Source: Clostridia bacterium (GTDB taxonomy: Bacteria; Bacillota; Clostridia; UBA1381). Taken from it: a DNA stretch of 64,000 nucleotides. Where the stretch lies: NCBI GenBank assembly GCA_017935675.1, contig JAGBHE010000027.1:1-64000 (forward strand), given 5' to 3'. The notes beneath the pieces are model-generated. The model was given only the letters and a program-made list of their open reading frames with translations. It had not been told where the DNA came from and searched no databases. Positions 14,205 through 55,903 of the stretch are shown piece by piece. A program made the position numbers and the translations under genes. Every line of letters begins with the position of its first letter. Within the stretch, counting starts at the first letter, position 1.

Positions 14205-14263
14205 TTAGTTATATTCAATTTGCGAAGGTAATGCTAAGTATAAAACATAGAAAGGCAATAGCT

Positions 14264-15286
14264 ATGAATAACGAATTTCAATTTTTAATATACCGTTCTG
14301 CAGAGGAAGACGTTTCCGTCAATGCGGTAATAAAAGACGAAACAATATGGCTTACACAAAAGGCTATGGCAGAGCTTTTTGATGTAAATGTTCCTGCAAT
14401 ATCAAAGCATTTACAAAATATCTTTGATGAGGGAGAGCTTGACCGAAATTCAACTGTTTCCAAAATGGAAATAGTTCAGCAAGAGGGGGCAAGAAGTGTT
14501 AAGCGAACAATGGAGTTTTATAATCTTGATGCTATTATCTCTGTCGGCTACCGTGTTAATTCTCACAGAGCTACCAAATTTCGTATTTGGGCGACAAGTA
14601 TATTGAAGGAATATATGCAAAAAGGCTTTGTGCTTGATGATGAACGGTTAAAGCAAGGAAAAGCGGCTTTTGGCACAGATTATTTCAGAGAATTACTGGA
14701 GCGTGTACGCTCAATCCGTGCAAGTGAACGACGTATATGGCAACAGATTACAGACATTTTTGCTGAATGTAGTATTGATTATGATAAAACTTCTCAGGTT
14801 ACGCATGACTTTTATGCAATGATACAAAATAAATTTCATTTTGCCATTACCGGGCAAACTGCAGCAGAGATAATTTATTCAAAGGCAGACAGAACTAAAG
14901 ATCATATGGGACTTACTACTTGGAAAAACTCTCCGGATGGCAGAATTTTAAAATCGGATGTTACTGCTGCAAAAAACTATTTATCAGAACAAGAAATTTC
15001 TCGCCTTGAACGTGCGGTTTCCGGATATTTTGACTATATAGAGGATTTGATTGAAAGAGAAAACACCTTTACAATGACAGAGTTCGCTGACAGCGTAAAT
15101 GAATTTTTATCCTTCCGCAGATACCAAATATTAAAAGACCATGGCAAAATATCACGGCAGCAGGCTTTTGAAAAAGCGGAGCGTGAATATGATGTGTTTA
15201 ATAAAACGCAGTTGATAGTGTCAGACTTTGATAAAGAAATAAGGTATTTAACTGATGCCTGTTCTGGCAGCGGAGGTGATAGCTGA
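14264..15286 (+). CDS. RhuM family protein (virulence-protein/Fic-associated type)
   Basis: A 340-residue protein of the RhuM (COG3943) family. The N-terminal third (about 15-125) has the diagnostic signature TIWLTQKAMAELFDVN...AISKHLQNIFDEGEL and later YNLDAIISVGYRVNSHRATKFRIWA, a winged-helix-like DNA-binding domain. The rest is helical. The family name comes from a Salmonella pathogenicity-island gene; its biochemical role is not known, and members are typical of mobile islands. The start at 14264 follows AGAAAGG. The gene lies between two same-direction copies of the double stem-loop repeat, suggesting it travelled as cargo (inference). There is no obvious partner toxin or antitoxin. Confidence 0.9.
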   Translation: MNNEFQFLIYRSAEEDVSVNAVIKDETIWLTQKAMAELFDVNVPAISKHLQNIFDEGELDRNSTVSKMEIVQQEGARSVKRTMEFYNLDAIISVGYRVNSHRATKFRIWATSILKEYMQKGFVLDDERLKQGKAAFGTDYFRELLERVRSIRASERRIWQQITDIFAECSIDYDKTSQVTHDFYAMIQNKFHFAITGQTAAEIIYSKADRTKDHMGLTTWKNSPDGRILKSDVTAAKNYLSEQEISRLERAVSGYFDYIEDLIERENTFTMTEFADSVNEFLSFRRYQILKDHGKISRQQAFEKAEREYDVFNKTQLIVSDFDKEIRYLTDACSGSGGDS

Positions 15287-15395: not shown

Positions 15396-15444
15396 TAGCG
15401 ATATAAATTGTTGATTTTACTTGTAATTTTTATTGCGCTCTGAC

Positions 15445-15531
15445 TTAGTTTATGCATAGTTGATGCATATTTGAGCCGTTAATAACTGTTTTACCGCTTT
15501 TCATATGCTCTAAGACTTCTGCTGTTGTCAT
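15445..15531 (-). pseudogene. 28-codon remnant, possibly the start of a sugar O-acetyltransferase
   Basis: An ATG at 15531 with a good AGGAGG site 9-14 bases upstream opens a frame reading MTTAEVLEHMKSGKTVINGS then NMHQLCIN before a TAA. The N-terminus resembles the first residues of some clostridial maltose/galactoside O-acetyltransferases, from memory only, and breaks off where the conserved SQEAL-type region would follow. It lies directly downstream of the aldo/keto-reductase fusion gene, among other gene fragments, so a truncated operon member is the best reading. A genuine small peptide cannot be excluded. Confidence 0.35.
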
Positions 15532-15553
15532 TGCCTTATATCCTCCTGAAATT

Positions 15554-17395
15554 TTAATACCAATCGTGTTTTTCGTTACGGTCAAGTGCATTGATTTTTT
15601 CCATTTCCTCGTCAGTTAGTTCAAAATCATACAATTCGGTATTTTCCTTAATATGGTCGGGATTGCTTGAACCGGGAATTACAACAACACCCTTTTGTAA
15701 GTTCCACCTTAAAATTACCTGTGCCGAGGATACACCGTGAGCTGCGGCAATTTCAGAAATCACCGTATCGCTCAAAAGCTCTGCCGTATGACCTCTGCCG
15801 CCGAGAGGATACCACCCTTGCACAACAATACCTTGCTCCTGAATATACGGGATTACATCATTTTCCTGATAATACGGGTGTATCTCGTTTTGAACAAGCG
15901 CGGGCTTAATTGTAACTTGCGGTAAAAAACTCTTTAACTCTGACACATACCAATTCGATAAACCAAGTGAACGAATTTTTCCGTCCTCGACAAACTTTTC
16001 CATAGCCTTATATGCCTTTACATCGTTTGTATCGGGGTGATGTAAAAGCATCATATCAACATATCCGATATTTAATCTGTCAATGCACGCTTGTATGGAT
16101 TGCTCCGGATTTGCCATTTCGTTGCCCGGATATATTTTCGTTATAACAAATATCTCCTCGCGCTTTGTACCTGTTTCCTCCATAAATTCACGAACAGCCT
16201 GACCGACTTCCTGCTCGTTGCCATAAGCTGACGCGGTATCAATAAGACGCACGCCATTTTCAAGTGCGGATTTTACGGAGTTAATGCAGGTATCACCGTG
16301 TAGGCTGTATGTACCCAAGCCATTTATCGGCATTTCATAACCACTGTTTAGTATAACTGTTTTTGTATTCAAATTAAAACCTCCCGGATTTTCCACAAAA
16401 TTCGGCAAATCAAGGCTGTCAACCCATTGTGAAATTTCTGTTTGACTTGCACTGCCGCTAAAACGTCTACCTGAAATCCATTCTGCACTTTCAGCAAGTG
16501 AATGTAAATTCGTATCGCTTGAACCTATACCGCTTGAATGAGATGTACAGAACGGAATAATTGTTTTTCCCGAAAAATCATAGCTTTCAAGGAACGTATA
16601 TATTATTTTCGGTGCTTGACCGTGCCATATCGGATAACCTAAAAATACAGTGTCATACTGCTCCATATTTGATATATTGTCAGCAATAGCAGGTCTTGCG
16701 TTCGGGTCAGCTTGTTCTTTATCTGCTCGTCCGTTGGTATAATACTGTAAATCTGCTTCGGTGTATGGCTCGCTTGCTTCGATTTTGTAAATATCTGCGC
16801 CCGTTATATCTACTATTTGCTTTGCAATATTTTCTGTTGTACCTGTGTTTGAAAAATATGCAACAAGCATTTTTGATGTGTCAGGTGTTGGTGTCATTAT
16901 AGAATTTACACTGTTTTGAGATTGAGTATTTTTACTTATGATGATAAGCTGCTGTGCACCGTCCCAATCGACACTATATCCAAGGTTTTCGGATATAAAG
17001 CGTATCGGAAGCATTGTGCGTTCATTGATAATAGCGGGGGAAGTATCAAGTATTTTCGCTTCGTTATTTACATATGCCGTTGTGCTGTCTATTGTAAGAG
17101 CTATGGTTTTATCAGACAGCGAAAGAGATATTTTTTGTGTATTCTGTTCCCAAGATACATAACCTCCCATTTCTTCAATAATAGCTCTTATGGGAACGAG
17201 CGTTCTGTTATTTATAATTATGGGTGTCGTTCCTCTGCCCTCGTCAATTTCTTTTTCAATGCCGTTTACGGTCATTATAGGATTATTTATCTGCATTGTA
17301 AGCAAAAAGTCATCTGATACTGTTTCCGCCTTACAGCCTGTCATACAAAGCAGTGAAAATGTTAATATCATCATGATAGATATTATTCTTTTCAT
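15554..17395 (-). CDS. Lipoprotein fusing stalk domain, flavodoxin and aldo/keto reductase
   Basis: A 613-residue triple fusion. Residues 1-21 are a lipoprotein signal ending MTGC. About 36-155 is a copper-amine-oxidase-N-like stalk pair (TPIIINNRTLVPIRAII and SPAIINERTMLPIRFI). About 176-330 is a flavodoxin with the FMN phosphate loop FSNTGTTENI and a YPIWHG segment. About 345-613 is an aldo/keto reductase with its tetrad at Asp386 (LIDTASAYG), Tyr391, Lys420 (VITK) and His452 (LLHHP). Each domain looks complete. The signal predicts an extracellular position, where FMN and NADPH are not normally available, which makes the fusion puzzling. Remnants of a second aldo/keto reductase and of an FMN reductase lie just upstream. 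Confidence 0.9.
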   Translation of the reverse strand: MKRIISIMMILTFSLLCMTGCKAETVSDDFLLTMQINNPIMTVNGIEKEIDEGRGTTPIIINNRTLVPIRAIIEEMGGYVSWEQNTQKISLSLSDKTIALTIDSTTAYVNNEAKILDTSPAIINERTMLPIRFISENLGYSVDWDGAQQLIIISKNTQSQNSVNSIMTPTPDTSKMLVAYFSNTGTTENIAKQIVDITGADIYKIEASEPYTEADLQYYTNGRADKEQADPNARPAIADNISNMEQYDTVFLGYPIWHGQAPKIIYTFLESYDFSGKTIIPFCTSHSSGIGSSDTNLHSLAESAEWISGRRFSGSASQTEISQWVDSLDLPNFVENPGGFNLNTKTVILNSGYEMPINGLGTYSLHGDTCINSVKSALENGVRLIDTASAYGNEQEVGQAVREFMEETGTKREEIFVITKIYPGNEMANPEQSIQACIDRLNIGYVDMMLLHHPDTNDVKAYKAMEKFVEDGKIRSLGLSNWYVSELKSFLPQVTIKPALVQNEIHPYYQENDVIPYIQEQGIVVQGWYPLGGRGHTAELLSDTVISEIAAAHGVSSAQVILRWNLQKGVVVIPGSSNPDHIKENTELYDFELTDEEMEKINALDRNEKHDWY

Positions 17396-17423
17396 ATCTT
17401 AAAATCTCCTCTCTGTAAAATCA

Positions 17424-17486
17424 ATATCAATCGTGTTTTACCTTAAAATTACCTGTGCCGAAGATACACCGTGAGCTGCGGCAATC
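17424..17486 (-). pseudogene. Remnant of a second aldo/keto reductase
   Basis: The minus strand reads IAAAHGVSSAQVILR then TAA (17438-17485). This is the motif found near the C-terminus of the neighbouring fusion protein, and the DNA at 17438-17485 is nearly identical to about 15706-15753. The CAATCGTGTTTT at 17428-17439 also matches the 3' end of the fusion gene near 15563. The two matching pieces, 130 bp apart in the intact gene, are fused here, so this is a deleted tandem copy. Confidence 0.75.
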
Positions 17487-17555
17487 GGCATAATATTTCG
17501 GAAGTTTGTTTGGTTCTGAACTCATATCCCCACATATTGAATTTGAGTTAACGCC

Positions 17556-17714
17556 TTAATATTTGTTGCATTTTGGATAATCAAGACAATCAATGTATTT
17601 TTGATATTTATGCAGTGAGTTTAACATTTTTTGCCTATGAGGGGCAAGCAAAACAAATTGCTGATTTGAATTTCCGTTTTTTCTTGTGCTGCCGTTAAAT
17701 AGCAATACTTTCAT
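17556..17714 (-). pseudogene. N-terminal stub of an NADPH-dependent FMN reductase/flavodoxin
   Basis: A 52-codon frame starting at 17714 reads MKVLLFNGSTRKNGNSNQQF, the classic beta1 and phosphate-loop start of the FMN-reductase/flavodoxin family, which normally runs 170-200 residues. It then diverges and stops. The intact GGAGGTG ribosome site lies inside the 3' end of the truncated alcohol dehydrogenase gene, with which it overlaps by 20 bases. It is truncated and probably inactive. Confidence 0.7.
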
Positions 17715-18339
17715 AAAGCACCTCCGAATTATGGAACAGAGCGTCAAAGCCTTGATATGCCGTATATTTAGGCGGGACAGTTGTCATAAGTTCAGGGTCA
17801 ACGATTGAAAGTACAGGAGTTAACATAGGATCGCCAAAACCGATTTTTTCCTTTGCTTCAAGATTGGATATTACACCCCAGCAATTTATTTCCGAACCTG
17901 TACCTGAAGTTGTTGCAATCGTAACAATAGGTAATCCCTTATTTGAAAGCGGTTTTCCTTTACCTGTGCCTCCGCATACATAATCCCAAAGATCGCCGTC
18001 ATTTGTCGCCATAGCCGCGACTGCAACAGACGTGTCAAGCACTGCGCCGCCGCCAAGTGCAACAATGAAATCGCAGTTGTTTTCTCTTGCGCATTTCGCG
18101 CCCTCCATAACAGCTTCCTTTACGGGATTTTCCATAATGCCCGCATAAATGACATAATCAACATTTGCATTTTCGAGCTGTGCAATAGTTCTGTCAAGGT
18201 AGCCGTTTTCTTTTGTGGATTTACCGTTTGAAATCATAAGCAACGCTTTTTTTCCGGGCATAGCTTGATTGCCAAGTTTATTTAATGCGCCGCTGCCAAA
18301 AATTAAGTTTGTCGGATTGTTAAAATTAAAATTCATCAT
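17695..18339 (-). pseudogene. Truncated iron-containing alcohol dehydrogenase
   Basis: 214 residues of a family that is normally about 380-390 long. The NAD(P)-binding half is clear: FNFNNPTNLIFGSG at the start, ALGGGAVLDTSVAV, TIATTSGTGSEINCW, and the first metal-site stretch GFDALFH. It then breaks into NSEVLYESIAI and stops, so the helical metal-binding C-terminal domain is lost. The start at 18339 is chosen for the GAAAGGAG site just before it. A promoter (18371-18399) and a LysR-type palindrome (18419-18441) remain upstream. The deletion joined it to an FMN-reductase start. Confidence 0.85.
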
Positions 18340-48757: not shown

Positions 48758-51700
48758 TTAATTTTTTGAAAGTACCATATTCTTATTCCTGAACTCTGCA
48801 TAATCTATAACGGGCGTGATGTCCTCAAAGTTCCACAAAAAGAGCCTGACCGTATCAAATGCAGCCTCGGAGGATACATCTACCTTGAATTTTTCGCCGT
48901 TCAGGATACTTTTTTCTTCTGACAAACAAACACTTACGAGTCTGTCATCCTTGTAAAGAGCAGCGGCAAGAGCCGGTGCAGCGTTAATTCCCTTTTCAAC
49001 AGAAAGCTCTATCGAAAAGTCGCCCTCGGGAATACTGTCAAGCACTTTCCCGCCTGAAGTTATACTATACTCAAAATTCAACTTGCCGCATATAAGAACT
49101 CCTCTGCCGCCTGTTCCGACATACACTCTGCCGTATACATCTCTGTCAGCTTCAATATGATTGGCATTTGAAAGTCCGTATCGTTCATCGTTTAACTTAA
49201 ACCATGCAGCGCCATTGTCATCGCTGCGGTACAGTCCCCGCTCTCCATTTATGTCGCCGAACACATAAAGTGACAAGTATGAGTTTCCGTCTTTTTCCTT
49301 CCCGTAGGAAATATCGGTTACATTATCGAATTCTGTAAGCTTTGTTACGGTTCTGCAGCCGTCCGTCGATTTAAACAAAGAGTTATTCACGACAATATAA
49401 GCCTCGCCTGCCTTTTTGGGATTTGTGATAATAGAGCAGTAATTGCCGCTGTCAGCGCCTTTTACATTTGCTTTTGATTTTTCAAAGCTTACACCCCAGT
49501 CCTCGCTGATATAAATATCGCCGTTGACCTTATCAATCGCATAAAACACATTTCCCTTTACTCTGTCGGGTTCAATAACATTTCTTTCCTGATCGTACTG
49601 ACTCGCGTCATATAAATTAGCCGGAAGTCCCTCGCATCTGTGCCATGTTCTTCCCCAGTCGTCCGACCAAAGAGCATAGACGTCTCTGACCTTTTCATTT
49701 CTTCTTGCACATGCCACAAGAACAGGATATTTTCCGTCCTTGACTTGTGACGATACAGCAACATCGCCCATACCCGCACCCTCTGTTGTCGGGAATCCGT
49801 TATTTATCCAGTTTTCGCCGCTGTCTTCCGAAACACCTATCAATCCGTAGGTTACGTAATCAGCAGACATCGCAATAAATTTGGGATTCTCCTCACAAAA
49901 GTCAAAGCCTGTCAGCTGACCTAAATATTCGCCGTTTACATGGTCGGTAAGCACGCTGGGTATTGCATAGAAATGATAATTGTCATAGTTGTACGGATTG
50001 CTCATTTTCCAGCCGGTGTAGTCCATAATTGCAACATACGGAGCATCGCCCGGAACCGATACAATGTTATTTATACACGTTTCCTCAATACCCTTTACGT
50101 CAAAGCTGTATTTTATGTCATCTGAAAGCATATCTGTCGATTTCCACATACCTCTGCCGTCAAGACCCCACATCAGAATCTCGCCCTCTTTATCGGGGAA
50201 CGGGTCTATTGCCGTTGCGCAGAAGTTTATGCCAATCTTATCCCATGTCATTTCGTTCGGGATAATGTTGCCTGAATTTATTTCACTCGAACAAAGCTCC
50301 CAGTTGCCGTCTCCAATCCTGCGGTAAATATGAAACTCGGGATAATCACCCTCGCCTGTAACTATAACGACAGGCTTTCCGTCTGAGGTGTAAGCTGTGC
50401 AAACCGTTTCGGCTTTTCTGCCTTTTAGCTTTTCAGGCGTAATATCTGAAATACCGGTTCCGTCATATTCAAATACACCTGTTTTTGACGCCATGTAAAG
50501 CTTTCCGCCGATACAATCCATGCGGAGAACGCTTTCGGGGCTGCCTTCGATAAGGCTCCATGAACGTCCGCCGTCTGCGGTTTTGTAAACACCCACTCCG
50601 TCAGAAGCAGCATAAACAACTTTTGTTCTGCCGTCTGCAAGCCCGCTTTCCTTATCAAAGGTTACCACTCTTGTGCCCTGAAAGGAATTTTGATTAGGAG
50701 AAGTTATTCCGCTTTTGACATCGGAAATATAATACCAGCTTTCTGCACCGTCATTACTTGCCGCAAGCCCATTATATCTCGTTCCGCAGTAGATAACGCT
50801 GCTGTTATTCGGATCAACCGCAATACATTCACCCCAGCGCCTGCCCTCACCGTTGTTTGCTTCAAACACAGCGTTAAGCCCTGTTTTTTCCCACGTTTTA
50901 CCTCTGTCGGTTGACTTAAGAACGTCCGAACCATAGCCCTGCATATACCAATAGGTTCCTGCCGCGGCATAAACCACATCGGGATTTTGCGGGTCTATCG
51001 CAATGCCGGCAATACCCATAAGATTTTTTTCTTTTTCCGTCAGTGCGTCGTTTAGCGGAATCCATTCGCCGAGTTCCCCGTCAAAGCGGTATGCGCCGCC
51101 AACATCTGTTCTGACGTACATCAAATCATTTTCTGACGGGTGACACACGATACCTGTTATCATACCGCCGCCGCCAAAGCGTGCATTGCTCCACGCGTTT
51201 TTCTCCACGCCCGCAACTGCCGATTCTGCTCTGAAATTTATTTTTCGGGTTTCTTTAAGCAAGCGTTCGCCCGATTCGGATATCACATTCTTACTTATAT
51301 TAATATAGTATACATCACTGTCAACAACCGATTTATCAAATGTAATCACAGCTGTTTTTTTATCATCTGAAAGAGTTACGTCTGTAATATTCAGCCCCAC
51401 CGACGGTTCAAAATTTTCAGCCTTAATCGTCAGAGCATCCATCTCGTTTCCGAAGGCAATCTGTATCGAGTTGTCTCCGACAAATCCGTCAAATGATGCA
51501 CAAGGCTTGTCGGTATAGTAAATCTCACTGTCGCCTATCTGTGCGGAATAATCAACATCCGTATCCGGAAACTGTATTTTTATATATTTGTATTTTGACG
51601 GGATTTCACCTGTACGAGATACATAATTTTTTGCTATGTAATAATTAAACCACCCACACTGATTATTTTCAACCCTTGTACCATCATTAACCTCATATTC

Positions 51701-53443
51701 CTTTCCGGAGGTGAGCTTGTCAAAATTCATTCCGTCGCCTGACAAATAAATCGTGTAGTCATACGAAAGCGGATAATTTACCTTATCGATTCTGTCGGAG
51801 CTTGAATATGTTTTTATTTTAAATCCTGTTATAATTCCATCAACCTTGTAAGTTATATAATTTCCGAAGCCCTTGCCGTTCGTTCTGTAAACGTGCGGCT
51901 CGGAACTACCCGCTCCAAACATCCCGCTCACCGAAATGTTTTGCGAACTGCCGGCAAGAATATTGATATCCGAGTTTTCATCGGATAAAACCCGATAATT
52001 GCTCTTTGTTTCAAAAGGAATTTGCCGTACAGATACCGGCTCGCCCATAATCGATTTTACATTTTCGCTTATATTCAAAGTATAATCAGTGTTTTCTGAC
52101 AAATTTTTATCTAAAACAAGCGTTGCGTATTTATTCTCATCCGAATACGCCGCAGATACAACGCTGTAATTTTCTATTTCAAAATTTCCGGCATTAATCG
52201 TCTCCCCGTCCATCCGTTTTGAAAAGCTTACGGTTAAGGTGTTATCCGCTGCTTTATCATCGGCATCTGATATGATTGCCGTCGGTGAATCAGTATTGAT
52301 TGCCCATATGTGTACATCGCCGAGCATCGAAGCATATCTTGCTTTCGAGTTCACATCAGGGAAAACAACTTTTAGCCATCGGTATTTATACGGATTAGTG
52401 TCGCGTTTCATCGTAAGCCGTTTCATTGTGTAGTATGTAAACCACGAACACTGATTGTTTTCGACTCGTTTTATTTCGCTCAAGTAATCTGTACTTTCTT
52501 CCAGCTTAACATAATTTTTACCGTCCTCCGACATATAAATTTCATGCATAGAGTTTCGGTCTGCTCTTTCATGTGTAGTGAAAGTGTCTATCTGAAAATC
52601 TGTTATAATGCCTTTTGTCTTGTATACAACATAGCTGCCGTTTTCCATGTCACCGGTATAAAAAAGATACGGCTCTGAGCTTTCAGCTCCGAAAATAGAA
52701 GGCCTGATTACTCTGTACATTCCGTCACCGATTGTTACCCTTGGGCTTTTTTCCCAGATAACGTTAAAGGTTGAGTTGTCGTCATAAATTTCCTTCTCAC
52801 CGATATTAAGAGTGAAGAAACCGAGATTCTTGATATAAAGATTGTAATCCCGGCTCACAGCTCCGGTAAACTTAAATCTTATTTGCGTAACTGCAGAAAT
52901 GTCAAGATCACCTGCCATGTCCGATACCTTAATTCTTATATCGTTCCACTCATTCATTTTTATATTTCCCGACAGACAGTAAGCATCAGACCATTTCCAG
53001 CCGCCATCCAACCTGCCAAACACAACATTCGGCAAATCAGCCGACACAGCGGTGTCGGCATAAACCGAAAAGCCGAAATAAATATCATCAATTTTCTTAT
53101 TCAGATTGACCGCTGGTGTGGAATAATTTATATATTGTGTATATCCGTCCTCTCCTTTTGTCTCCTTCGAATATACAGACCATTTCTGACTGCCTGTTTC
53201 CGATACTGTTTTATCATAAGTATGACCGTAACCTTTTTTCATTGAATGACCGTTGGAATTTTCCGTAAATTTACCATACTCATCCACAACCTTCGCATAA
53301 TCGGTATATCGCTCATTTATTGAAATTGCTTCATAGCCCTCCGCTCCGGCTGTCACAACAACCGGCAGCAATTGCAATATCAGACAAAACAAAAGCACAA
53401 TAGATGTATATGAACAATACATTCTTGTATAAGTTTTTTTCAT
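48758..53443 (-). CDS. Large secreted GH74 enzyme with duplicated binding domains
   Basis: 1561 residues with a signal peptide (about 1-35). Order: one beta-module (about 75-210); an F5/8-type-C/CBM32-like domain plus Ig-like domain (about 226-480), repeated at about 490-740; a GH74 double propeller (about 745-1455) opening WSNARFGGGGMITGI and VRTDVGGAYRF, the classic xyloglucanase entry with Asp780, with later STDRGKTWEK, WGECIAVDPNN and SEDWGVSF blades; and a C-terminal domain ending in VRLFLWNFEDITPV. GH74 enzymes hydrolyse xyloglucan backbones. Endo or exo action cannot be judged. Confidence 0.93.
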   Translation of the reverse strand: MKKTYTRMYCSYTSIVLLFCLILQLLPVVVTAGAEGYEAISINERYTDYAKVVDEYGKFTENSNGHSMKKGYGHTYDKTVSETGSQKWSVYSKETKGEDGYTQYINYSTPAVNLNKKIDDIYFGFSVYADTAVSADLPNVVFGRLDGGWKWSDAYCLSGNIKMNEWNDIRIKVSDMAGDLDISAVTQIRFKFTGAVSRDYNLYIKNLGFFTLNIGEKEIYDDNSTFNVIWEKSPRVTIGDGMYRVIRPSIFGAESSEPYLFYTGDMENGSYVVYKTKGIITDFQIDTFTTHERADRNSMHEIYMSEDGKNYVKLEESTDYLSEIKRVENNQCSWFTYYTMKRLTMKRDTNPYKYRWLKVVFPDVNSKARYASMLGDVHIWAINTDSPTAIISDADDKAADNTLTVSFSKRMDGETINAGNFEIENYSVVSAAYSDENKYATLVLDKNLSENTDYTLNISENVKSIMGEPVSVRQIPFETKSNYRVLSDENSDINILAGSSQNISVSGMFGAGSSEPHVYRTNGKGFGNYITYKVDGIITGFKIKTYSSSDRIDKVNYPLSYDYTIYLSGDGMNFDKLTSGKEYEVNDGTRVENNQCGWFNYYIAKNYVSRTGEIPSKYKYIKIQFPDTDVDYSAQIGDSEIYYTDKPCASFDGFVGDNSIQIAFGNEMDALTIKAENFEPSVGLNITDVTLSDDKKTAVITFDKSVVDSDVYYINISKNVISESGERLLKETRKINFRAESAVAGVEKNAWSNARFGGGGMITGIVCHPSENDLMYVRTDVGGAYRFDGELGEWIPLNDALTEKEKNLMGIAGIAIDPQNPDVVYAAAGTYWYMQGYGSDVLKSTDRGKTWEKTGLNAVFEANNGEGRRWGECIAVDPNNSSVIYCGTRYNGLAASNDGAESWYYISDVKSGITSPNQNSFQGTRVVTFDKESGLADGRTKVVYAASDGVGVYKTADGGRSWSLIEGSPESVLRMDCIGGKLYMASKTGVFEYDGTGISDITPEKLKGRKAETVCTAYTSDGKPVVIVTGEGDYPEFHIYRRIGDGNWELCSSEINSGNIIPNEMTWDKIGINFCATAIDPFPDKEGEILMWGLDGRGMWKSTDMLSDDIKYSFDVKGIEETCINNIVSVPGDAPYVAIMDYTGWKMSNPYNYDNYHFYAIPSVLTDHVNGEYLGQLTGFDFCEENPKFIAMSADYVTYGLIGVSEDSGENWINNGFPTTEGAGMGDVAVSSQVKDGKYPVLVACARRNEKVRDVYALWSDDWGRTWHRCEGLPANLYDASQYDQERNVIEPDRVKGNVFYAIDKVNGDIYISEDWGVSFEKSKANVKGADSGNYCSIITNPKKAGEAYIVVNNSLFKSTDGCRTVTKLTEFDNVTDISYGKEKDGNSYLSLYVFGDINGERGLYRSDDNGAAWFKLNDERYGLSNANHIEADRDVYGRVYVGTGGRGVLICGKLNFEYSITSGGKVLDSIPEGDFSIELSVEKGINAAPALAAALYKDDRLVSVCLSEEKSILNGEKFKVDVSSEAAFDTVRLFLWNFEDITPVIDYAEFRNKNMVLSKN

Positions 53444-53515: not shown

Positions 53516-55903
53516 TCATTCAGCAGCAACCGTCTGTGTAACACCGATTGTTTTAGCGCCGACAATAGGCTGAAGCAGACTATGATTCCATGCAAAAGTC
53601 TTAACACTGTCGCAATCCGTGCCTATTGTATAGCTTGTGCTGAGTCCGTCACAAATTTTCACCGATTTCAAAGTACCTGCCTTGTATTCGGCAACGATAA
53701 GCGTCGCTCCCGGTGCATTTGCAGTAATGTCAATTACCTCTCCGCCGTTTGCGCTTGTAATTTCATTTCCGTCTTTTAAAACAAGCATGTTTTTATCATC
53801 GCTTACATAACGAAGATTTTGGATATATACATCATATTGCGATTTATCATCAGGAAGCGGCATTTCCAGTTTCAAAGCTTTAGCGTCCAGCGTTCCCTTA
53901 CACCCCATATCGCTCAGCTTTACTCTGACAAGATTCCACCGGCCGGCTTTAATCGCAGGCCACTGGTGAGCACTTGCTCCCGTAGACCACACTCCGATAT
54001 GTGTGCTTTCAAGCTTATCCGTATCAGGATAAATCAAAAATTCCAGGTACATATCTTCATTGACAGTTCTCGGTACGTTCGTAAACTCAATCTGAACAGT
54101 TTTTGTTATTTCTTCAACGCCGTCAACCGTGTAAGTCTCGCAATTCTTAAATGACCAGCTTTTTCCGCCGACTGCTGTAACAGTGTCTGTAAAATTCTTG
54201 CCCGGATCCGACCACTTGCCTGTATAAAACAGATTGCTCACATTTTTCAGCTCTCCGTCCGAACCGTAAATAACATTTTCACTTTCTGCTTTCAAGCCGA
54301 TCTTGTATATCGCCAAGGTTTTTGTTTCGCTTTCACTTATAATTTTACCTTCAGCATCAAGCACTTCTACTCTGTAATTATTTACAGTATCGTAATTCTG
54401 AACATCAATGAGCATGTTTGTCTGTGTTGTTTCATATACTGTATCATTTTCATACACCTTATATGATGCAGCCGCGTCAGCATTTGAAGCTGTCCATGAA
54501 AGAGCAACCTTGTTGTTTCTTTGCTCTAAAGTGTCAATCTCAACAGCCTGAGCATCATAAAGACACATATTCTGAATATAAATGTTGTAGGTTTCATTAA
54601 TTGTTCCCGGAGCATAAAATCTGATATACATCAAAGCTCTTTTATCAAAATTTTCGTTTTGAGAATACAAATCCGAAAGTCTGATTTTTACATTACACCA
54701 TTTACCCGGAACAATATTTGTTCCAAATCCTGTTGTAAGCCATTGGTATGATTCTCTGTAACTGCTATAATTGTCTTCAGTGACGCCAATAGCGTTCGAG
54801 TCACTGCCAATCCAGATTTTGGGAAGCTGTGATAAATCCTGCAGATCGGTATATATCAAAAATTGTAAATACGGATCATTATAACCGCTGATATCCTGAA
54901 CATTGTTTACAGGCTTGTCATCTGTCCTCCAATCCTTCTGCATAAGCTTTCCACCCCAATATAAATTGCCGAAAGCTACGTCGGTATTTTTTCCGGGATA
55001 TATAAATCGAAGGCTTTTTCCGCCAACAACCGTACGGTCAGAATCAAGGCAATCGTCATATTTAACACCGTCGATTGTTATGCCATTTCCCCAATCATAA
55101 GACTGGCTAAACCAATTACCTTTTATCCTTTTGTTTCCGAAGATTGTATATTTAAGCTCATGATGATCTGTTTCCTTAAGAACCTCCGGATAATAGAATC
55201 CTATATTTTGGAAAGAAATTTTATAATCCTCGGTAAGGTTTTTGTCAGGCACTGCATTAAACCATAAAAAATTATTTCCGTTATTTGTTCCCAAAAGTTC
55301 GCTTAACTTAATCTCTTTTTTAGCCCATGTATTAAGCTCCTCCGAACGGGCACTGAAATTCACTGTTCCGGTGCCGCTTCCATTTGTTGAAAGTTTAAAA
55401 TTATGTTCTGCCGATGCCTCAGCAGCTTCACTTCCAAGGGTATCCACATACATCCAAAATCTGATATATCCGTTGTTCTTTATATCGCTTAAATCATGCG
55501 CCTTAGTCGAAATCAGTCTTATTTGATTTGTTTTTAAAACTTTAGTATAGTCACCACTTGTGAAATCCCGTTCTTTGTTTACAATATGGAACGTTATACT
55601 TGAACCGTTAAATTTCTTTGAAAGTGACGGATCGTTATATTTTTCGCCAATTCCGCCGTAGGGGATGGTTGTCGTCGTACCGTCATTCTTTCTTGCCGTC
55701 GAATCCCAATACGCAGCAACCGTGGCGCTGTAGTCATTTTCACCGAAATAGCCGGCCTTTTCAAACATATCAATTCCGTTAATAGTAACATTATCATGAT
55801 ACTGCTCTGCAGACTCCTCAGCACCTGCACTAAAACACGCAAGCGAGCCAAGCATAGTTACAGCGGCAAAAAGTGCGATAACACGATTTGCTATTTTTTT
55901 CAT
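53516..55903 (-). CDS. Secreted protein with three copies of the beta-module
   Basis: 795 residues with a signal peptide ending near CFSAGA. Three beta-modules lie at about 50-238, 265-450 and 545-700, each with GYIRFWMYVD or YLQFLIYTD, a KWCNVKIRLSDL-type strand, and YNIYIQNMCLY or YKISFQNIGFY. An FnIII-like domain (about 455-535) separates the last two. The C-terminal domain (about 703-795) ends VKTFAWNHSLLQPIVG, like the FLWN end of the GH74 protein. No catalytic motif was seen, so it is a likely polysaccharide-binding or assembly protein. First gene of the operon, 85 bases or so from its predicted transcript start, with a GGAGGT ribosome site. Confidence 0.88.
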   Translation of the reverse strand: MKKIANRVIALFAAVTMLGSLACFSAGAEESAEQYHDNVTINGIDMFEKAGYFGENDYSATVAAYWDSTARKNDGTTTTIPYGGIGEKYNDPSLSKKFNGSSITFHIVNKERDFTSGDYTKVLKTNQIRLISTKAHDLSDIKNNGYIRFWMYVDTLGSEAAEASAEHNFKLSTNGSGTGTVNFSARSEELNTWAKKEIKLSELLGTNNGNNFLWFNAVPDKNLTEDYKISFQNIGFYYPEVLKETDHHELKYTIFGNKRIKGNWFSQSYDWGNGITIDGVKYDDCLDSDRTVVGGKSLRFIYPGKNTDVAFGNLYWGGKLMQKDWRTDDKPVNNVQDISGYNDPYLQFLIYTDLQDLSQLPKIWIGSDSNAIGVTEDNYSSYRESYQWLTTGFGTNIVPGKWCNVKIRLSDLYSQNENFDKRALMYIRFYAPGTINETYNIYIQNMCLYDAQAVEIDTLEQRNNKVALSWTASNADAAASYKVYENDTVYETTQTNMLIDVQNYDTVNNYRVEVLDAEGKIISESETKTLAIYKIGLKAESENVIYGSDGELKNVSNLFYTGKWSDPGKNFTDTVTAVGGKSWSFKNCETYTVDGVEEITKTVQIEFTNVPRTVNEDMYLEFLIYPDTDKLESTHIGVWSTGASAHQWPAIKAGRWNLVRVKLSDMGCKGTLDAKALKLEMPLPDDKSQYDVYIQNLRYVSDDKNMLVLKDGNEITSANGGEVIDITANAPGATLIVAEYKAGTLKSVKICDGLSTSYTIGTDCDSVKTFAWNHSLLQPIVGAKTIGVTQTVAAE

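Follow-up and report, generated by a model that had tools for sequence, protein, structure and literature searches.

Flavodoxins and aldo/keto reductases (AKRs) are usually cytosolic proteins, and enzymes that require NAD(P)H are expected in the cell interior, where this cofactor is found. Extracytosolic members of the Flavodoxin_4 family with covalently bound FMN have nonetheless been described in Firmicutes, where their hallmarks are ApbE and an insertion that separates strand 1 from helix 1 (PMC11334425). Among AKRs, an iron-containing alcohol dehydrogenase (ADH) and a DkgA-type enzyme are encoded together in E. coli yqhD-dkgA, which is upregulated with aldehydes by YqhC (PMC6115493). Each single domain discussed below is already known, as is exported Flavodoxin_4. 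In the literature searched, which left most subscription journals outside, we found no description of an exported AKR, an AKR-flavodoxin fusion or anchor swapping around such a pair; on exported flavodoxins, exported AKRs, the fusion or its stalk, it held nothing beyond flavinylated Flavodoxin_4.

Here we analyze a gene of a Clostridia bacterium that joins a lipoprotein signal, a Cu_amine_oxidN1 stalk, a flavodoxin and an AKR in a single protein. It lies in a window of 64,000 nucleotides (the whole stretch of DNA analyzed). Judged from its sequence relatives, this triple order is a local variant within a wide and conserved family of exported Flavodoxin_4-AKR proteins in which the N-terminal stalk is exchangeable.

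The fusion gene and its product

The gene and the features of its product are as follows.

15554..17395, minus strand: complete coding sequence of the fusion, 613 aa, with lipoprotein signal, Cu_amine_oxidN1, Flavodoxin_4 and aldo/keto reductase
17406..17410, minus strand: ribosome-binding site AGGAG, 10 nt upstream of the fusion start, read from the sequence
17333..17395, minus strand: signal peptide with lipobox MTG-C, residues 1-21, from the sequence and comparative signal analysis; Cys21 is the predicted lipidated residue
16937..17230, minus strand: Cu_amine_oxidN1 stalk domain, residues 56-153 (Pfam, 2.6e-33)
16415..16873, minus strand: Flavodoxin_4 (PF12682) domain, residues 175-327 (Pfam, 6.5e-50)
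15575..16363, minus strand: aldo/keto reductase domain, residues 345-607, DkgA/YvgN-like; tetrad D386, Y391, K420 and H453, cofactor pocket Y363, G575 and H581

The 613-codon frame runs uninterrupted from an ATG start, while the plus strand of 15554-17395 is full of stops. The N terminus, MKRIISIMMILTFSLLCMTGC, is a lipoprotein leader in which the lipobox M18-T19-G20-C21 is preceded by KR and a hydrophobic stretch; the protein thus has the signal peptide and the lipobox ending in Cys (MTGC21) that define lipoproteins. All three Pfam matches lie far above the cut-off (for Aldo_ket_red, residues 362-605, 5.7e-49), and the AlphaFold2 models of the individual domains are of good confidence (mean pLDDT 85). 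The FMN phosphate loop of the flavodoxin comprises S182, T184, T186 and T187, and the (beta/alpha)8 barrel with its Asp-Tyr-Lys-His tetrad places the C-terminal part in the aldo/keto reductase superfamily. An earlier note, made from the sequence alone, had read a lipobox, a stalk, a flavodoxin and an AKR in this one protein, and the leader and the Pfam matches bear it out.

The reductase domain and its cofactor

Among proteins of solved structure, the AKR part is best matched by B. subtilis YtbE and YvgN and by the 2,5-diketo-D-gluconate (DKG) reductases. Foldseek placed its model on E. coli DkgA, T. maritima DKG reductase and B. subtilis YvgN, with target-normalized TM-scores of up to 0.91 and 31-40% identity. 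The domain therefore resembles the DkgA/DKG reductase group (AKR5; YvgN, YtbE, PDB 1mzr) in fold, tetrad and sequence, but it is exported and fused, has Gly and His in place of the Lys and Arg that contact the NADPH phosphate, carries Tyr at position 22 and ends in EKHDWY. Against the DkgA equivalog PRK11565 it scores 184 bits, compared with a curated cut-off of 425.

Across 78 aligned members of the family, the window protein included, the tetrad D386/Y391/K420/H453 is invariant. The carboxamide contacts S480 and Q502 are conserved and N481 is kept in 77 of 78; the further cofactor contacts S576, E584 and N585 are conserved as well. The Flavodoxin_4 profile matches all 78, and most FMN-loop residues are kept in every member or nearly so, which upholds the earlier reading of an intact FMN loop beside a complete catalytic tetrad. 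In eight close pairs, dN/dS was 0.04-0.11 for the AKR and 0.08-0.35 for the flavodoxin, with the stalk looser. Since the catalytic and cofactor residues are conserved and dN/dS is low, both domains are under purifying selection and kept for function.

The pocket for the 2'-phosphate of NADPH, which reads IPKS...HRI.EN in YtbE and YvgN, is IPGSSNPDHIKEN in the window protein. In the numbering of Corynebacterium DKG reductase A, this amounts to K232G and R238H, together with Tyr at position 22; where NADPH-specific AKR5 enzymes have Lys232 and Arg238 for the 2'-phosphate, the fusion has G575 and H581. PDB entry 1m9h differs from the wild type, 1hw6, exactly at F22Y, K232G, R238H and A272G, changes that were reportedly made to let the enzyme use NADH. 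Three of these four residues are thus naturally Tyr, Gly and His (Y363/G575/H581) in 78 of 78 members, while A272 has no counterpart in the shorter C terminus of the fusion. Because of this match and its invariance, NADH is the likelier cofactor, and the earlier description of the enzyme as an NADPH-dependent reductase becomes doubtful. The Gly/His signature is shared by the cytosolic relatives L034 and L138, so it predates export or is independent of it, and we rejected a switch to NADH specific to export. At L034 (1498-2926), AKR genes stand in tandem; the complete copy is leaderless and also has the cofactor loop IPGSSNP.HI.EN.

Gene neighborhood and proposed function

Around the fusions listed from a scan of GTDB genomes, a divergent LysR gene occurs at 50 loci, and a hexapeptide acetyltransferase and/or FMN_red gene (one mixed cluster) at 47. 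Genes for an alpha/beta hydrolase (21 loci), an iron-containing ADH (15), a CMD-cupin protein (6) and a cyclophilin-like lipoprotein (5) also recur, and in two genomes the next gene, as read by eye, resembles L-rhamnose isomerase. In gene content, to which the comparison is confined, yqhD-dkgA with YqhC is alike in combining an iron ADH, a DkgA-like AKR and a divergent regulator. The fusion sets differ in that the regulator is of the LysR type, the AKR is exported, and genes for flavodoxin, FMN reductase, cyclophilin-like protein and acetyltransferase are added. By this analogy, the neighbors (LysR, iron ADH, FMN_red, cyclophilin-like) suggest an aldehyde- or electrophile-response set.

The window retains only pieces of such a set.

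17716..18339, minus strand: truncated iron-containing ADH that keeps about 208 N-terminal residues of 390 and is 80% identical to the undamaged gene lying upstream of the L083 fusion
17655..17714, minus strand: stub, the start of a flavodoxin-like FMN reductase gene (MKVLLFNGSTRKNGNSNQQF), read from the sequence and the family of intact copies
17435..17542, minus strand: scrap like the C-terminal part of an AKR (48% over 48 columns, E 8e-4)
15397..15531, minus strand: frame-broken start of a hexapeptide acetyltransferase gene, whose intact form follows the fusion in L025-L029

The cut ADH lies upstream, followed by the FMN reductase stub and the AKR scrap, with the acetyltransferase remnant downstream. 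Both flanks (window 15397-18339) are thus decayed copies of the usual operon partners and the fusion alone is intact, suggesting that it has been retained on its own. A RhuM-family gene (PF13310, 2.5e-107; window 14231-15286, plus strand) adjoins the broken acetyltransferase remnant.

We propose, at roughly even chances, that the fusion is a surface-anchored carbonyl or quinone reductase belonging to an electrophile-response gene set. The lipobox and the Cu_amine_oxidN1 stalk would hold the flavodoxin and the DkgA-like AKR outside the membrane, where the pair would act on compounds of the carbonyl or quinone type, reducing them before uptake. The reductase would most likely use NAD(H) rather than NADP(H), and the FMN, acquired outside the cell, would be held without a covalent bond. 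The family is part of a gene set associated with LysR (with iron ADH, FMN reductase, hydrolase and cyclophilin-like lipoprotein) that resembles the aldehyde/electrophile operons of the yqhD-dkgA type; the substrate class is suggested by these neighbors only. Several points weigh against this proposal: the operon neighbors in the window are decayed, the Gly/His signature of cytosolic relatives speaks against an adaptation to export, and we know of no extracellular supply of reduced nicotinamide for these cells.

The source of electrons

No electron donor for the fusion was found among its gene neighbors or in the ApbE and FMN_bind content of 17 carriers, so the earlier remark that the donors are unknown still holds. 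Two AlphaFold predictions gave good domains, with pTM 0.55 and 0.64, the latter for the two-domain flavodoxin-AKR piece. Confident packing of the flavodoxin on the AKR was found in neither, and for that reason we rejected direct transfer from FMN to the AKR as a conclusion from structure. Both results count against a surface reductase.

They also count against a possible, though rather doubtful, role in electron export, in which the cell would reduce the exported flavodoxin, through the membrane or by a diffusible reduced flavin, and the flavodoxin would re-reduce a nicotinamide held in the AKR pocket. The AKR would then function outside the cell independently of any NAD(P)H in the medium. The fusion of an electron carrier to the AKR in all 78 aligned members, under conservation, fits such a relay, as do the cytosolic FMN reductases within the same gene sets. 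However, AKRs normally release their cofactor, and at five loci (L031, L032, L051, L135 and L136) the AKR is exported without a flavodoxin.

It is less probable still that the domains bind or sense without turnover, serving in capture of a ligand, flavin or nicotinamide or in adhesion. "Moonlighting" surface oxidoreductases exist, and the missing cofactor supply would be no obstacle to such a pseudo-enzyme, but all catalytic and most cofactor-contact residues are invariant in the 78 members, and the AKR is under strong purifying selection.

A bolder reading is that Clostridia run nicotinamide-dependent carbonyl reduction at the cell surface, with a flavodoxin fused to an NAD-type AKR on exchangeable anchors (wall, S-layer, cellulosome or lipid) and supplied with electrons from the cell without ApbE-flavinylated proteins. 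That this is an undescribed extracytoplasmic redox system we put forward tentatively, as something the sequences make conceivable rather than likely. A conserved surface enzyme of the NAD(P)H type, paired with a flavodoxin in many gut anaerobes, would imply either a use of nicotinamide outside the cell or an unrecognized route for sending electrons out. It would bear on the reduction, by gut bacteria, of aldehydes, ketones and quinones from diet and host, and the existence of cultured carriers makes it testable.

A part in flavinylation-based extracellular electron transfer, with ApbE and FMN_bind proteins, is very improbable. The fusion is like the covalent-FMN proteins of Firmicutes (PMC11334425) in Pfam family and export, and the genome of the window protein does encode one ApbE. 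In contrast to those proteins, however, the fusion is joined to an AKR, and its Flavodoxin_4 domain has only a 5-residue loop between strand 175-180 and helix 186-198 in the AlphaFold2 model, without the insertion and its flavinylated Ser/Thr. The genome's sole FMN_bind protein is, by its neighbors, the RnfG of an Rnf operon. Among the 17 carriers of the fusion or of an exported AKR, 6 lack FMN_bind and 8 lack ApbE; both are absent from four carriers with completeness of at least 96%, and flavinylation-based electron export was therefore rejected as a requirement.

Probable export and exchange of anchors

A hydrophobic leader, called by a simple hydropathy rule, was present in 79 of the 82 listed fusion ORFs, compared with 8 of 157 neighboring control proteins. 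A strict lipobox was found in 62 of the 82 and in none of the controls; several of the ORFs without one have a Pro-containing lipobox, a signal peptide of the ordinary type or a 5' end that is cut or broken. By Pfam, the N-terminal modules among the 78 members were SLH (9), Big_2 (5), Cu_amine_oxidN1 (3), dockerin (1) and cyclophilin-like (1), and the others have mostly short polar linkers. In a phylogeny built on the common Flavodoxin_4-AKR part, the N-terminal module switches at least nine times.

The window stalk is closest (55-65%) to the same domain in other exported proteins of its own genome, whereas the other triple fusions reach 54-55%. AKRs borne on SLH modules and linkers are 84-86% identical to that of the window protein, and the tree does not group this protein with L052/L053. 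For these reasons the stalk was probably acquired locally, with exchange of anchors as the rule.

The swapped anchors, a comparative kind of evidence, are the strongest argument for an outside location, and together with the lipobox they make it very probable that the window protein is located outside the cell. The earlier suggestion of an extracytoplasmic enzyme is thereby strongly supported, whereas its alternative, a fusion of unusual topology, falls away: within the exported Flavodoxin_4-AKR family this topology is ordinary. That the leader is misread and the protein remains cytoplasmic is very unlikely, despite the usual cytosolic place of both domains, given the leaders of its relatives and the SLH, dockerin and Big_2 modules fused at the same place; the comparative leader analysis gave no sign of a cytoplasmic product, and we rejected this reading.

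Cu_amine_oxidN1 surface proteins of Clostridia likewise carry the domain as an N-terminal module behind a signal peptide, at about 35 places in this genome; what sets the fusion apart is its flavodoxin-AKR cargo. On contig C29 of the same genome (L021, 5560-13234), an apparent operon encodes exported proteins that join Cu_amine_oxidN1 to redox or other cargo: one with Flavodoxin_4, one of 747 aa with cyclophilin-like, FGE-sulfatase and Flavodoxin_4 domains, and one with DUF362. Leaderless AKR and flavodoxin genes are mixed in, with TetR and flavin reductase genes. On contig C90 (L022, 6298-9419), genes for exported proteins adjoin: Cu_amine_oxidN1 with a cyclophilin-like domain, a leader-bearing cyclophilin-like protein, and Cu_amine_oxidN1 with a choloylglycine-hydrolase-like domain.

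Distribution of the family

The GTDB scan, whose sample is biased towards the window protein, gave at least 79 loci and, from these, at least 82 Flavodoxin_4-AKR fusion ORFs. Carriers among the matches listed are mostly Clostridia (Lachnospiraceae, Oscillospiraceae), with Sharpea in addition; a few metagenome-assembled genomes labeled Anaeroplasma, Alistipes or Methanomassiliicoccus may be mis-binned or reflect transfers. Cultured carriers are Clostridium methylpentosum DSM 5476, Oscillibacter sp. 1-3, Sharpea azabuensis DSM 18934 and Diplocloster agilis ASD5720.

Among 150 related genomes, the full triple order was found in two more (L023 and L024), at 64% identity over the whole length; the order is thus not unique to this assembly. 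In L025-L029 the lipoprotein leader is followed by a beta domain of ~100 aa that has no Pfam name, then by Flavodoxin_4 and AKR, with 72% over the shared part. Elsewhere Cu_amine_oxidN1 is joined to cyclophilin-like and AKR domains (L030) or directly to the AKR (L032, L051), and the beta domain to the AKR (L031). That the triple fusion is an assembly chimera, as the local rearrangement shown by its decayed flanks might hint, can be dismissed on the full-length matches in two independent assemblies and the recurrence of both domain junctions in other forms.

In the window itself, the C termini of two products (53516-55903 and 48758-53443, both minus strand) are weakly like the beta domain of L025-L029 (..VKTFLWDM..PI; E 0.017 and 0.004), which may serve widely as an accessory domain on surface proteins of this lineage. 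At L119 (4243-8184), L091 (5863-10577) and L097 (3828-7365), fusion genes stand in tandem within one genome with differing anchors, a lipobox linker beside Big_2. The flavodoxin-AKR parts at L119 are nearly identical, which suggests anchor exchange after a recent duplication or gene conversion.
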